NCBI GenBank assembly: GCA_003599275.1
Contig: QZJG01000052.1
Coordinates: 1-42,076 of the forward strand
Length of the DNA stretch: 42,076 nt
DNA from: Nitrospiraceae bacterium
Lineage (GTDB): Bacteria > Nitrospirota > Thermodesulfovibrionia > UBA6902
Direction of reading: 5' to 3'
Shown piece after piece: positions 20,164 to 22,575 of this stretch (positions are counted from its first letter, which is position 1; every line of letters starts with the position of its first letter). The notes beneath the pieces were generated by a model. That model worked only from the letters and a program-made list of their open reading frames with translations, made no database searches and had not been told where the DNA came from. The position numbers were made by a program, and so were the translations under genes.

Positions 20164-20238
20164 AGGCGCGTAGCTCAGTGGGAGAGCGCTTCCTTGACAC
20201 GGAAGAGGTCAGGGGTTCGATACCCCTCGTGCCTACCA
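20164..20238 (+). tRNA. tRNA-Val (anticodon GAC)
   Basis: The full cloverleaf can be folded by eye. The acceptor AGGCGCG pairs with CGTGCCT with one G-U, followed by the D arm GCTC/GAGC, the anticodon stem CTTCC/GGAAG with loop TTGACAC, the T arm AGGGG/CCCCT with TTCGATA, discriminator A and an encoded CCA (20236-20238). The anticodon GAC reads Val. A TTGACA at 20121 could be a -35, but a good -10 at the right spacing is not evident. Confidence 0.97.
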
Positions 20239-20254
20239 TTTTTTAGAATGATAA

Positions 20255-20327
20255 ATTAGGAATTAAGAATTAGGAATGGATTTTCCTCCTCAATTTTCAA
20301 TTCGTAATTACTAATTCTTTTAGGAGG
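20255..20327 (+). promoter_or_regulatory. thrS mRNA leader with an anti-Shine-Dalgarno segment
   Basis: CCTCCT (20285-20290) is perfectly complementary to the thrS ribosome-binding site AGGAGG (20322-20327), 31 nt apart. In addition, an AT-rich left arm (about 20255-20277, with AAGAATTAGGAAT) and a right arm (about 20291-20320, with TTACTAATTCTTTT) are inverted copies whose loop would expose CCTCCT. Two partly exclusive folds could therefore hide or free the ribosome-binding site. No T-box features are visible. Confidence 0.45.
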
Positions 20328-20332
20328 CTTAC

Positions 20333-22081
20333 ATTTTAGAAGAACCGCAAAACGATAAGGAATTTCTCAACACCTACCGCCACAGCACTTCACATATTAT
20401 GGCGCACGCGGTCAAAGAGCTTTTCCCGAACACAAAACTTGCCATCGGTCCCGCTATCCCTGACGGCTTCTATTATGATTTCGATTGCGATCATTCCTTT
20501 ACACAGGAAGACCTGCCGCGCATTGAAGAAAAGATGAAGGAAATCATAAAAGCCAATAAACCTTTCACACGAAAAGAGCTCTCGAAGGAAGAGGCCATAA
20601 AGTTTTTTCAGGAAAGCGGTGAAACGTATAAGGTTGAGCTGATAAGTGAAATTACAGACGAAACAGTGTCCCTTTACGAAGAAGATAATTTCATCGACCT
20701 CTGCCGCGGGCCGCACCTTGGATCAACCGGGAAGATAAAAGCCTTCAAACTTCTTTCAGTAGCGGGCGCGTACTGGAGGGGTAACGAAAAGAACAAGATG
20801 CTTCAGCGTATTTACGGAGTTTCGTTCACTACTAAAGATGAGTTAAAAAAGCACCTCGACTTCCTCGAAGAGGTCAAGAAAAGAGACCACAGGCGACTCG
20901 GTAAAGAACTTGATCTTTTCAGCATGAATGATGAAATCGGGCCAGGACTCGTCCTGTGGCATCCGAGAGGTGCGGCGATCAGAAGGGTAATAGAGAATTT
21001 CTGGCTCGATGAGCACCACAGGGCGGATTACCAGATACTTTACACCCCGCACATGGCGAAACTCGATTTATGGAAAAAGACAGGTCATCTTGATTTTTAC
21101 AGAGAGAACATGTACTCGCCGATGGAGATCGAGGGGCTTGAATATGAAATCAAACCCATGAACTGTCCGTTCCACGTGTCTATTTTTAAAAGTCATCTGA
21201 GAAGCTACAGAGACCTGCCGGTCCGGTTTGCCGAACTCGGCACCGTTTACAGATACGAGCGCTCCGGGGTGCTTCACGGCCTCCTCAGAGTAAGAGGTTT
21301 TACACAGGATGACGCTCATATATTCTGCAGGGAAGACCAGATCGAAGATGAAGTATTAAGGGTGCTGGAATTTACGTTGTTTATTCTTAAGACATTCGGG
21401 TTTTCCGATTACGATATCTACCTTTCAACAAGACCTGAGAAATATGTGGGAACAGATGAAGCATGGAAAAAAGCGACCGGGGCGCTTGAGAACGCCCTTG
21501 CGCATAAGGGACTGAATTATGAAGTTGACCCTGGTGAGGGTGTATTCTACGGTCCGAAAATTGATATCAAGGTAAGGGATTCCCTCGGACGTCAGTGGCA
21601 GTGCAGCACAATACAGGTTGATTTCAATGTGCCGGAACGACTGGATATCAACTACAGAGGCGCCGACAGCAAAGAGTACAGGCCGATAATGATACACCGT
21701 GCGCTGATGGGGTCCCTCGAGCGCTTTTTCGGCGTACTTATAGAGCACTATGGTGGCGCATTCCCGTTATGGCTGTCTCCAGTGCAAATATCTCTATTGA
21801 CTATTTCCGAAAGACATGTAGAATATTGCAGCGGGATACGGAAATCTCTGATCAATGAAGGATTCAGGGTTGACATGGACGAAGAAAATGAGAAAATAGG
21901 TTATAAAATAAGGAAAGCCGCTGTATTAAAAACGCCGTATATGTGTATAATAGGCGACAAGGAAATGGAAAATAATACGGTAAACATCAGAAAAAGAAAT
22001 GGAGAAAACATAGGGGAAATGTCGCTGGAAAAACTGACGGCGTTCCTCAGGGAAGAAATATCCATCAGGAGGGAATCATAG
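20333..22081 (+). CDS. thrS: Threonyl-tRNA synthetase, without TGS domain, ATT start
   Basis: The frame is closed by TAG at 20321-20323. The first ATG, at 20399, would remove the essential editing-site pair H17 and H21 of RHSTSH. Between them the only plausible start is ATT at 20333, exactly 5 nt after AGGAGG. The predicted 582 residues contain the editing domain (HxxxH plus CRGPH at about 124-128), class II motifs (RYERSGVLHGLLRVRGFTQDD), the MNCPFH zinc region and the C-terminal anticodon-binding domain. The enzyme charges tRNA-Thr. The usual N-terminal TGS domain of about 60 residues is absent, although the editing domain is present. infC overlaps its stop by 4 nt. Confidence 0.93.
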   Translation: MLEEPQNDKEFLNTYRHSTSHIMAHAVKELFPNTKLAIGPAIPDGFYYDFDCDHSFTQEDLPRIEEKMKEIIKANKPFTRKELSKEEAIKFFQESGETYKVELISEITDETVSLYEEDNFIDLCRGPHLGSTGKIKAFKLLSVAGAYWRGNEKNKMLQRIYGVSFTTKDELKKHLDFLEEVKKRDHRRLGKELDLFSMNDEIGPGLVLWHPRGAAIRRVIENFWLDEHHRADYQILYTPHMAKLDLWKKTGHLDFYRENMYSPMEIEGLEYEIKPMNCPFHVSIFKSHLRSYRDLPVRFAELGTVYRYERSGVLHGLLRVRGFTQDDAHIFCREDQIEDEVLRVLEFTLFILKTFGFSDYDIYLSTRPEKYVGTDEAWKKATGALENALAHKGLNYEVDPGEGVFYGPKIDIKVRDSLGRQWQCSTIQVDFNVPERLDINYRGADSKEYRPIMIHRALMGSLERFFGVLIEHYGGAFPLWLSPVQISLLTISERHVEYCSGIRKSLINEGFRVDMDEENEKIGYKIRKAAVLKTPYMCIIGDKEMENNTVNIRKRNGENIGEMSLEKLTAFLREEISIRRES

Positions 22082-22575
22082 AAAAAGAGTTACGAATAAA
22101 CAGGTGGATCCGGGCAAAAGAAGTAAGGGTAATAGACCATGACGGCGGCCAGTTGGGCGTTATGGATATCAGAAGCGCCATCAAGCGCGCACAAGAGCAG
22201 GAATTTGATCTTGTTGAAGTTGCACCCGGGGCAGCGCCTCCCGTGTGCAGGATAATGGATTACGGCAAATACCGTTACCAGCAGAGCAAGAAACATTCTA
22301 CAAAACAAAGGACCATATCCCTTAAAGAAATAAAACTGAGACCCCAGATAAATGAACATGATCTGCTTTTCAAACTGAAAAGCATAAAAAAATTTCTTGA
22401 ACATGGAGACAAAGCTAAAATCACGATGATGTTCAGAGGCAGAGAGATTGTTCATGCTTCAATCGGAAAAAAGGTTTTTGAGCGCATAATTGCAGAATTC
22501 TTATCGGCAGCGAATATAGAGCAACCGGCCAGAATGGAAGGCAACCGCATGACAATGGTCCTTGCCCCTAAATAG
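22078..22575 (+). CDS. infC: Translation initiation factor IF-3, ATA start
   Basis: IF-3, 165 residues, with both domains. The N-domain starts at ELRINRWIRAKEVRVID and continues DLVEVAPGAAPPVCRIMDYGK. The C-domain carries KEIKLRPQINEHD and GDKAKITMMFRGRE. No ATG, GTG or TTG occurs in frame for more than 60 nt upstream, and the next one downstream (TTG 22153) would delete the conserved N-terminal 25 residues. The ATA at 22078 sits 5 nt after AGGAGG (22067-22072) and overlaps the thrS stop as ATAG. IF-3 itself discriminates against noncanonical starts, and E. coli infC uses AUU for autoregulation, so an AUA start here fits that logic. rpmI and rplT, which normally follow, are missing: the next gene is on the other strand. 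Confidence 0.95.
   Translation: MEKELRINRWIRAKEVRVIDHDGGQLGVMDIRSAIKRAQEQEFDLVEVAPGAAPPVCRIMDYGKYRYQQSKKHSTKQRTISLKEIKLRPQINEHDLLFKLKSIKKFLEHGDKAKITMMFRGREIVHASIGKKVFERIIAEFLSAANIEQPARMEGNRMTMVLAPK

Follow-up and report, generated by a model that had tools for sequence, protein, structure and literature searches.

The window, by which we mean the whole stretch of 42,076 nucleotides that was analysed, carries on its forward strand a tRNA-Val gene followed by thrS and infC, the genes for threonine-tRNA ligase (ThrRS) and translation initiation factor IF-3 (IF3), respectively (Table 1). A sequence-only reading of this DNA had proposed that both genes start at rare codons, thrS at ATT and infC at ATA, each five nucleotides behind the Shine-Dalgarno (SD) sequence AGGAGG. 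Reading the letters directly confirmed both starts, the spacers between AGGAGG and start codon being CTTAC for thrS and GAATC for infC. Throughout, ATG, GTG and TTG are grouped as NUG, and ATT, ATA and ATC as AUH.

Table 1. Features of the thrS-infC region, with positions in the window
Feature	Position	Strand	Basis
tRNA-Val (GAC) gene, immediately 5' of thrS	20164..20238	+	ARAGORN; Rfam RF00005, 67.1 bits
TAG stop in thrS frame, four codons before ATT	20321..20323	+	sequence
Shine-Dalgarno AGGAGG of thrS	20322..20327	+	sequence; SD run 6, spacing 5 to ATT
ATT start codon of thrS	20333..20335	+	sequence; same codon in 9/10 genus genomes
thrS, threonine-tRNA ligase, 582 aa	20333..22081	+	TIGR00418, 761.6 bits (cut-off 383.65), and Pfam
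Shine-Dalgarno AGGAGG of infC, 5 nt before ATA	22067..22072	+	sequence
ATA start codon of infC, overlapping thrS stop (ATAG)	22078..22080	+	sequence; ATA in 9/9 genus genomes with data
infC, translation initiation factor IF-3, 165 aa	22078..22575	+	TIGR00168, 208.6 bits (cut-off 60); IF3_N and IF3_C

The thrS and infC starts in the window and its genus

The in-frame TAG shortly before the thrS ATT rules out any earlier start in this frame. The first in-frame ATG, at 20399, is codon 23 and lies past R16-H17-S18-T19-S20-H21, in agreement with the earlier claim that a start there would cost H17 and H21 of the RHSTSH editing motif. The product begins just ahead of the editing domain, a profile search gave no match to the TGS domain in the window ThrRS, and the gene is the sole full-length match within its own genome. 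For infC, the region without an in-frame NUG had been put at 60 nt upstream of the start, which understates it, as no NUG occurs over the 102 nt from the upstream stop codon TAA (21973-21975) to ATA. The first NUG downstream of ATA is TTG 22153. The thrS stop codon TAG (22079-22081) has the bases TA in common with the infC ATA, and because of this overlap translation of infC may be coupled to that of thrS in the window and in some relatives.

Each of the nine other genomes of the genus contains one thrS. In all ten genus genomes the frame from the upstream stop to the thrS editing motif is free of NUG codons, and in nine of them ATT stands at the same codon, the tenth (G001) starting at ATA, or at an ATT that immediately follows the SD. 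The infC ATA is found at the same codon in nine out of nine genomes; the contig of the tenth ends before it. In-frame stops precede the thrS ATT by 3 to 57 bases, hence no longer ThrRS is common to the genus. Canonical starts at other positions in close relatives had been named as the observation that would speak against the rare starts, and what the nine congeners examined carry favours ATT and ATA.

By eye, tRNA 3' halves were also seen upstream of thrS in a different genus of the same family, in family f7 and in one outgroup genome from Nitrospirota (L113, L120, L174, L287), and the tRNA-Val/thrS arrangement may be old and co-transcribed. The gap between the two genes (20239-20320) seems, again by eye, to hold inverted or tandem repeats of short units that differ from congener to congener (also L006, L007, L009, L012). 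Promoter and terminator scans matched the shuffled expectation. On the other side, rpmI lies 3' of infC in eight congeners of the control set (sequence read in three). In the window's genome rpmI-rplT is found on another contig (L294, G000:C45) with a differing upstream region, indicating that the operon is split after infC there.

AUH starts across the class and in outgroups

We drew 150 genomes of the class evenly from a larger set and found thrS in 145 of them, the loci coming from 32 genomes retrieved by searches and from 115 fetched stretches, with two genomes present twice. The sampled Nitrospirota class is probably Thermodesulfovibrionia, since a Thermodesulfovibrio MAG (L014) is 69% identical in the best segment and a class of this name exists in Nitrospirota; in this MAG thrS was called ATT and infC ATA. 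Starts were called with a loose rule, which gives NUG and AUH equal rights and ranks candidates by SD match, and with a strict rule, which demands an SD run of at least 5 at a spacing of 5-9 and a smallest distance to the editing motif of 9 codons in the class and 5 elsewhere.

Under the loose rule thrS was AUH in 125 of the 145 genomes (84 ATT, 21 ATC, 20 ATA), NUG in 11 and without call in 9, and infC was AUH in 130 of 137 (118 ATA, 12 ATC), NUG in 2 and without call in 5. Where both genes were called, 113 genomes combined AUH with AUH, ten had a NUG thrS with an AUH infC, and two had an AUH thrS with a NUG infC. Under the strict rule thrS was AUH in 116, NUG in 5 and without call in 22 of 143 genomes, two lacking data. 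Between the upstream stop (or the beginning of the stretch) and the thrS motif 55 of these 143 genomes contain no NUG at all, and for 93 of the 125 AUH calls none occurs between the upstream stop and the AUH codon. The SDs are strong: the thrS run is 5-8 in 116 of the 122 AUH genomes tallied, and all 130 AUH calls of infC have a run of 6-8 at a spacing of 5-9.

The same evidence bears on whether thrS is translated from another site: from a NUG further downstream, from a codon outside AUH, or from upstream sequence by way of a frameshift or an assembly error. We consider this extremely improbable, as a downstream NUG would cost the window protein its RHSTSH motif, an in-frame stop lies within five codons upstream in 23 of the 125 AUH calls, SD spacing is 5-9 in 120 of the 122 AUH genomes tallied, and the pattern recurs in separate assemblies from 16 of the 21 families sampled. 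Some latitude comes from infC, where ATA is preceded by the codon ATC (22075), leaving an uncertainty of one codon in the exact start.

AUH starts occur on ThrRS forms of different length. Taking the number of codons between upstream stop and motif as a proxy, with forms of at least 62 codons termed long, AUH was called in 63 of 72 long and 62 of 73 shorter forms, and some long forms, e.g. in G138, G096, G132 and G064, are devoid of NUG over about 65-90 codons before the motif. By this proxy the length class changed about 13 times on the tree, in one case within a single genus (L144 versus L131, L135 and L138). We also considered whether the long forms bear a TGS domain. PF02824 was detected in E. 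coli ThrS, in none of four whole long forms and in none of four of their N-terminal parts; thus, we claim only a TGS-length extension.

Outside the class the strict rule gave a different picture for thrS. Among 20 genomes of other Nitrospirota classes it called no AUH and one NUG, with 19 lacking a call, and among 77 named-record loci (L017-L093, mostly other phyla) it called 3 AUH and 18 NUG, with 56 lacking a call. A thrS without any NUG was found in 0 of the 20 and in 0 of the 77. Given the few NUG calls, the strict rule here indicates absence of AUH combined with an SD and does not prove where the outgroup genes start. The loose rule had suggested AUH for 7 of the 20; in six of these the SD run is 4 and in the seventh it is 5 at a spacing of 11, and not one of them survives the strict rule. 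For two loci, L080 (titled Stahlbacteria) and L038 (titled Kiritimatiellia), an AUH start of thrS was indicated in the presence of NUG codons; these may be independent cases or errors of the caller. The strict rule called infC AUH in 13 of 20 (7 without call) and in 25 of 49 outgroup cases (1 NUG, 23 without call). As AUH is frequent for infC in the outgroups and infrequent for thrS, the AUH start of infC is general and that of thrS is not.

As control within the class we used rpmI, a gene of the same operon in the congeners, which under the like loose rule was NUG in 113, AUH in 12 and without call in 2 of 127 genomes, putting the error of the loose caller near a tenth. A second control comprised 100 ortholog groups from 785.7 kb of nine genus genomes, of which only 24 have at least three members and 76 have two. 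Testing aligned codons, we found 67 groups with NUG and an SD, 27 with NUG and a weak SD, and 4 with neither, in addition to thrS and infC. Among the 24 groups with at least three members only thrS (ATT in 8/9) and infC (ATA in 9/9) show an aligned AUH behind a strong SD. Three two-member groups with an aligned AUH and strong SD were dismissed, since two of them simply start at ATG and the frame of the third is doubtful. A first filter had flagged 12 of the 100 groups, which besides thrS and infC have an ATG slightly downstream (e.g. rpmI) or resemble antisense or non-gene frames. Calling by SD only was uninformative on these groups, as intragenic SD-like runs and codon ambiguity left 53 of them, thrS and infC included, as 'other'.

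If start choice were relaxed throughout the class, thrS would be just one of many AUH genes. The restriction of aligned AUH with strong SD to two genes and the predominance of NUG in rpmI argue against this, as do initiator tRNA stems and IF3 proteins that look ordinary (see below), and we regard it as highly unlikely, even though the ortholog comparison covers only 786 kb of nine genus genomes with 24 of 100 groups having three or more members.

Origin and maintenance of the thrS start

We mapped the start codons onto a FastTree ThrRS tree of 163 sequences, with the states of 18 class members set by eye and 20 outgroups labelled NUG. AUH versus NUG requires six changes, one gain and five losses, while 200 shuffles of the labels gave 31 changes on average and 25 at the least. 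Dropping the hand settings in the class raised the count to ten (one gain, nine losses), and the strict rule lowered it to five (one gain, four losses). AUH thrS occurs in 16 of the 21 families of the sample; by eye f6, f7, f10 and f12 look NUG throughout, with f5 left open, and in f6, which was judged ATG by eye, the strict rule calls AUH in two genomes.

The third base of the thrS start changed 29 times among T, A and C and only rarely to G (3 of 32 changes; p = 0.0012). The expected share of changes to G, derived from 72 fourfold columns of thrS, is 34%. Machine calls alone gave 3 of 34 (p = 0.0006) and the strict rule 1 of 26 (p = 0.0003), all p-values being approximate, as they rest on parsimony counts on one tree with support values set aside. 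AUH is one mutation away from AUG, yet G is seldom reached, suggesting selection for a weak start or against AUG. Taken with the tree, these comparisons point to an AUH thrS start that arose once and was kept in most of the sampled members by selection against AUG. For comparison, one ancestral reconstruction counts a single switch from AUG to AUU among 61,358 ancestral AUG starts, according to the part of that study consulted (PMC5622118).

Selection against AUG would equally be expected if the AUH starts were real and did no more than throttle synthesis to a fixed level, the role proposed for the start of E. coli pcnB, with ThrRS held low against a strong promoter and IF3 varying too little to regulate thrS. 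The pcnB AUU start is termed translationally limiting in a title cited in the reference lists of PMC13009471 and PMC1780047. For a fixed low setting a weak SD would serve as well, yet the SDs are strong, and it leaves aside that thrS lies directly before a mostly AUH infC in the 132 genomes with both genes measured on the same strand, where infC overlaps the end of thrS in 17 (one of these, at -326, is probably a mis-call), follows within 60 nt in 94 and is farther away in 21. We therefore hold a fixed throttle to be possible but rather unlikely.

In eight of the 145 genomes no infC turned up in the sequence following thrS; three of these end at a contig edge, and in five the sequence runs on (G048, G051, G054, G143, G019). 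In G048, G051 and G054 thrS is NUG. Of the 11 class members whose thrS was called NUG, ten have an AUH infC, suggesting that control of thrS is dispensable in places. Conversely, infC was called ATG or TTG beside an AUH thrS in two loci, L182 (G104) and L136 (G096).

IF3 as a candidate regulator of both genes

The machinery for discriminating between start codons appears to be present, as IF3 is ordinary and initiator-type stems are found. The window IF3 matches TIGR00168 and both domain families, IF3_N and IF3_C, and 12 IF3 sequences of the class can be aligned with that of E. coli, beginning at residue N8. The initiator-type tRNA stem GGGCTCATAACCC was present in all seven class genomes tried. 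ARAGORN identified tRNA-Met in five of the seven stem loci scanned; G000 and G096 gave variant hits, so that for these two the stem alone is known. The stems, the ARAGORN loci and the IF3 alignments gave no sign that an odd initiator tRNA or a broken IF3 has relaxed initiation, and we discarded this idea.

In E. coli thrS is controlled by a translational operator and in Bacillus by a T-box. With both systems window thrS would share control of the ThrRS level after transcription starts, and it differs from them in that the start codon itself is the candidate control point. No T-box was found before the window thrS at E-values up to 1, the tRNA being the only hit above the Rfam gathering cut-off. 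In comparison with the E. coli-type operator, a tRNA mimic that goes with an AUG start, the window start is not AUG, and the leader upstream of the SD is, by eye, not conserved even within the genus. The fold of the window leader has a z-score of -2.42, and we claim no regulatory leader structure because of this lack of conservation.

IF3 makes 30S complexes on non-NUG codons unstable, which is how E. coli infC (ATT) controls itself, and it represses Streptomyces sigR, which starts with GTC (PMC5472188). According to excerpts of the respective papers, the infC genes of E. coli and B. subtilis start with AUU, that of S. aureus with AUA and that of Streptomyces with ATC (PMC5472188, PMC13009471, PMC1805508), and in vitro more IF3 lowers the share of full-length product from AUU read by CAU (PMC10158994). 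The literature searched yielded no measurement of IF3 acting on AUA or AUU in Nitrospirota. The sequence comparisons demonstrate the start positions, their conservation, the selection against AUG and the gene adjacency. We infer that initiator tRNA decodes the thrS AUU and the infC AUA as fMet, each codon following a strong SD. The infC start would be an old and widespread device of IF3 self-control, and early in the class thrS, located beside infC, would have exchanged its NUG start for AUH. Free IF3, by destabilising 30S complexes on AUH, would then repress both genes, and whenever ribosomes exceed IF3, ThrRS and IF3 would both be made faster.

By analogy with infC of E. coli and sigR of Streptomyces, IF3 likely limits the synthesis of both ThrRS and IF3, and the sequence-only proposal that IF3 sets the dose of both proteins is plausible. 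We consider it probable that thrS initiates at AUU and infC at AUA, that the AUH start of thrS is kept by selection, and that IF3 most likely represses both genes. With somewhat less assurance we favour thrS-infC as one IF3-gated unit in which the ratio of ribosomes to IF3 sets both levels, and which, having arisen once, selection preserved in most of the class even as the length of the ThrRS N-terminus changed repeatedly. ThrRS is required in bulk, and in combination with the low yield of AUH starts this means that strong transcription would be needed, which counts against IF3 repression of thrS. In S. aureus AUU and AUA reporters reach about 10% of AUG, and ccpN up to 30% in rich medium, in the sections of PMC13009471 consulted.

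Few bacterial genes are known to have non-NUG starts. That of infC is long known, and the window infC resembles the self-controlled examples in having AUA behind AGGAGG directly after thrS together with an ordinary IF3. E. coli K-12 differs in that its thrS, as read from L295, has an ATG start, whereas in the window the thrS start is weak as well. The closest parallel outside infC is Streptomyces sigR, which has a non-NUG start, an extensive SD and conservation in the genus, and for which the cited passages report IF3 control. Unlike thrS, however, sigR encodes a stress regulator and uses GTC, whereas thrS is the gene of a housekeeping synthetase beside infC, with AUU, AUA or AUC across most of the class. 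Near-cognate starts are likewise described for S. aureus ccpN (AUA) and cvfC1 (AUU), in both of which the SD is extended and the yield reduced (PMC13009471, in part), for pcnB, and for lepA, where AUU was proposed in two species (PMC1780047, in part). These cases concern single species or staphylococci, and the portions of the sources consulted do not describe them in an operon with infC. In the literature searched, which was mostly open-access, no non-NUG start of thrS is described; an arXiv survey from 2020, which deals with genes that prefer starts other than AUG, may list thrS.

Across most of the class, then, an essential synthetase gene keeps an AUH start and avoids AUG. If IF3 controls thrS, the IF3 regulon would extend past its own gene within a conserved operon. 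For annotation, gene callers restricted to NUG likely misplace the starts of thrS and infC in these genomes, trimming the ThrRS editing domain or the N-terminus of IF3.
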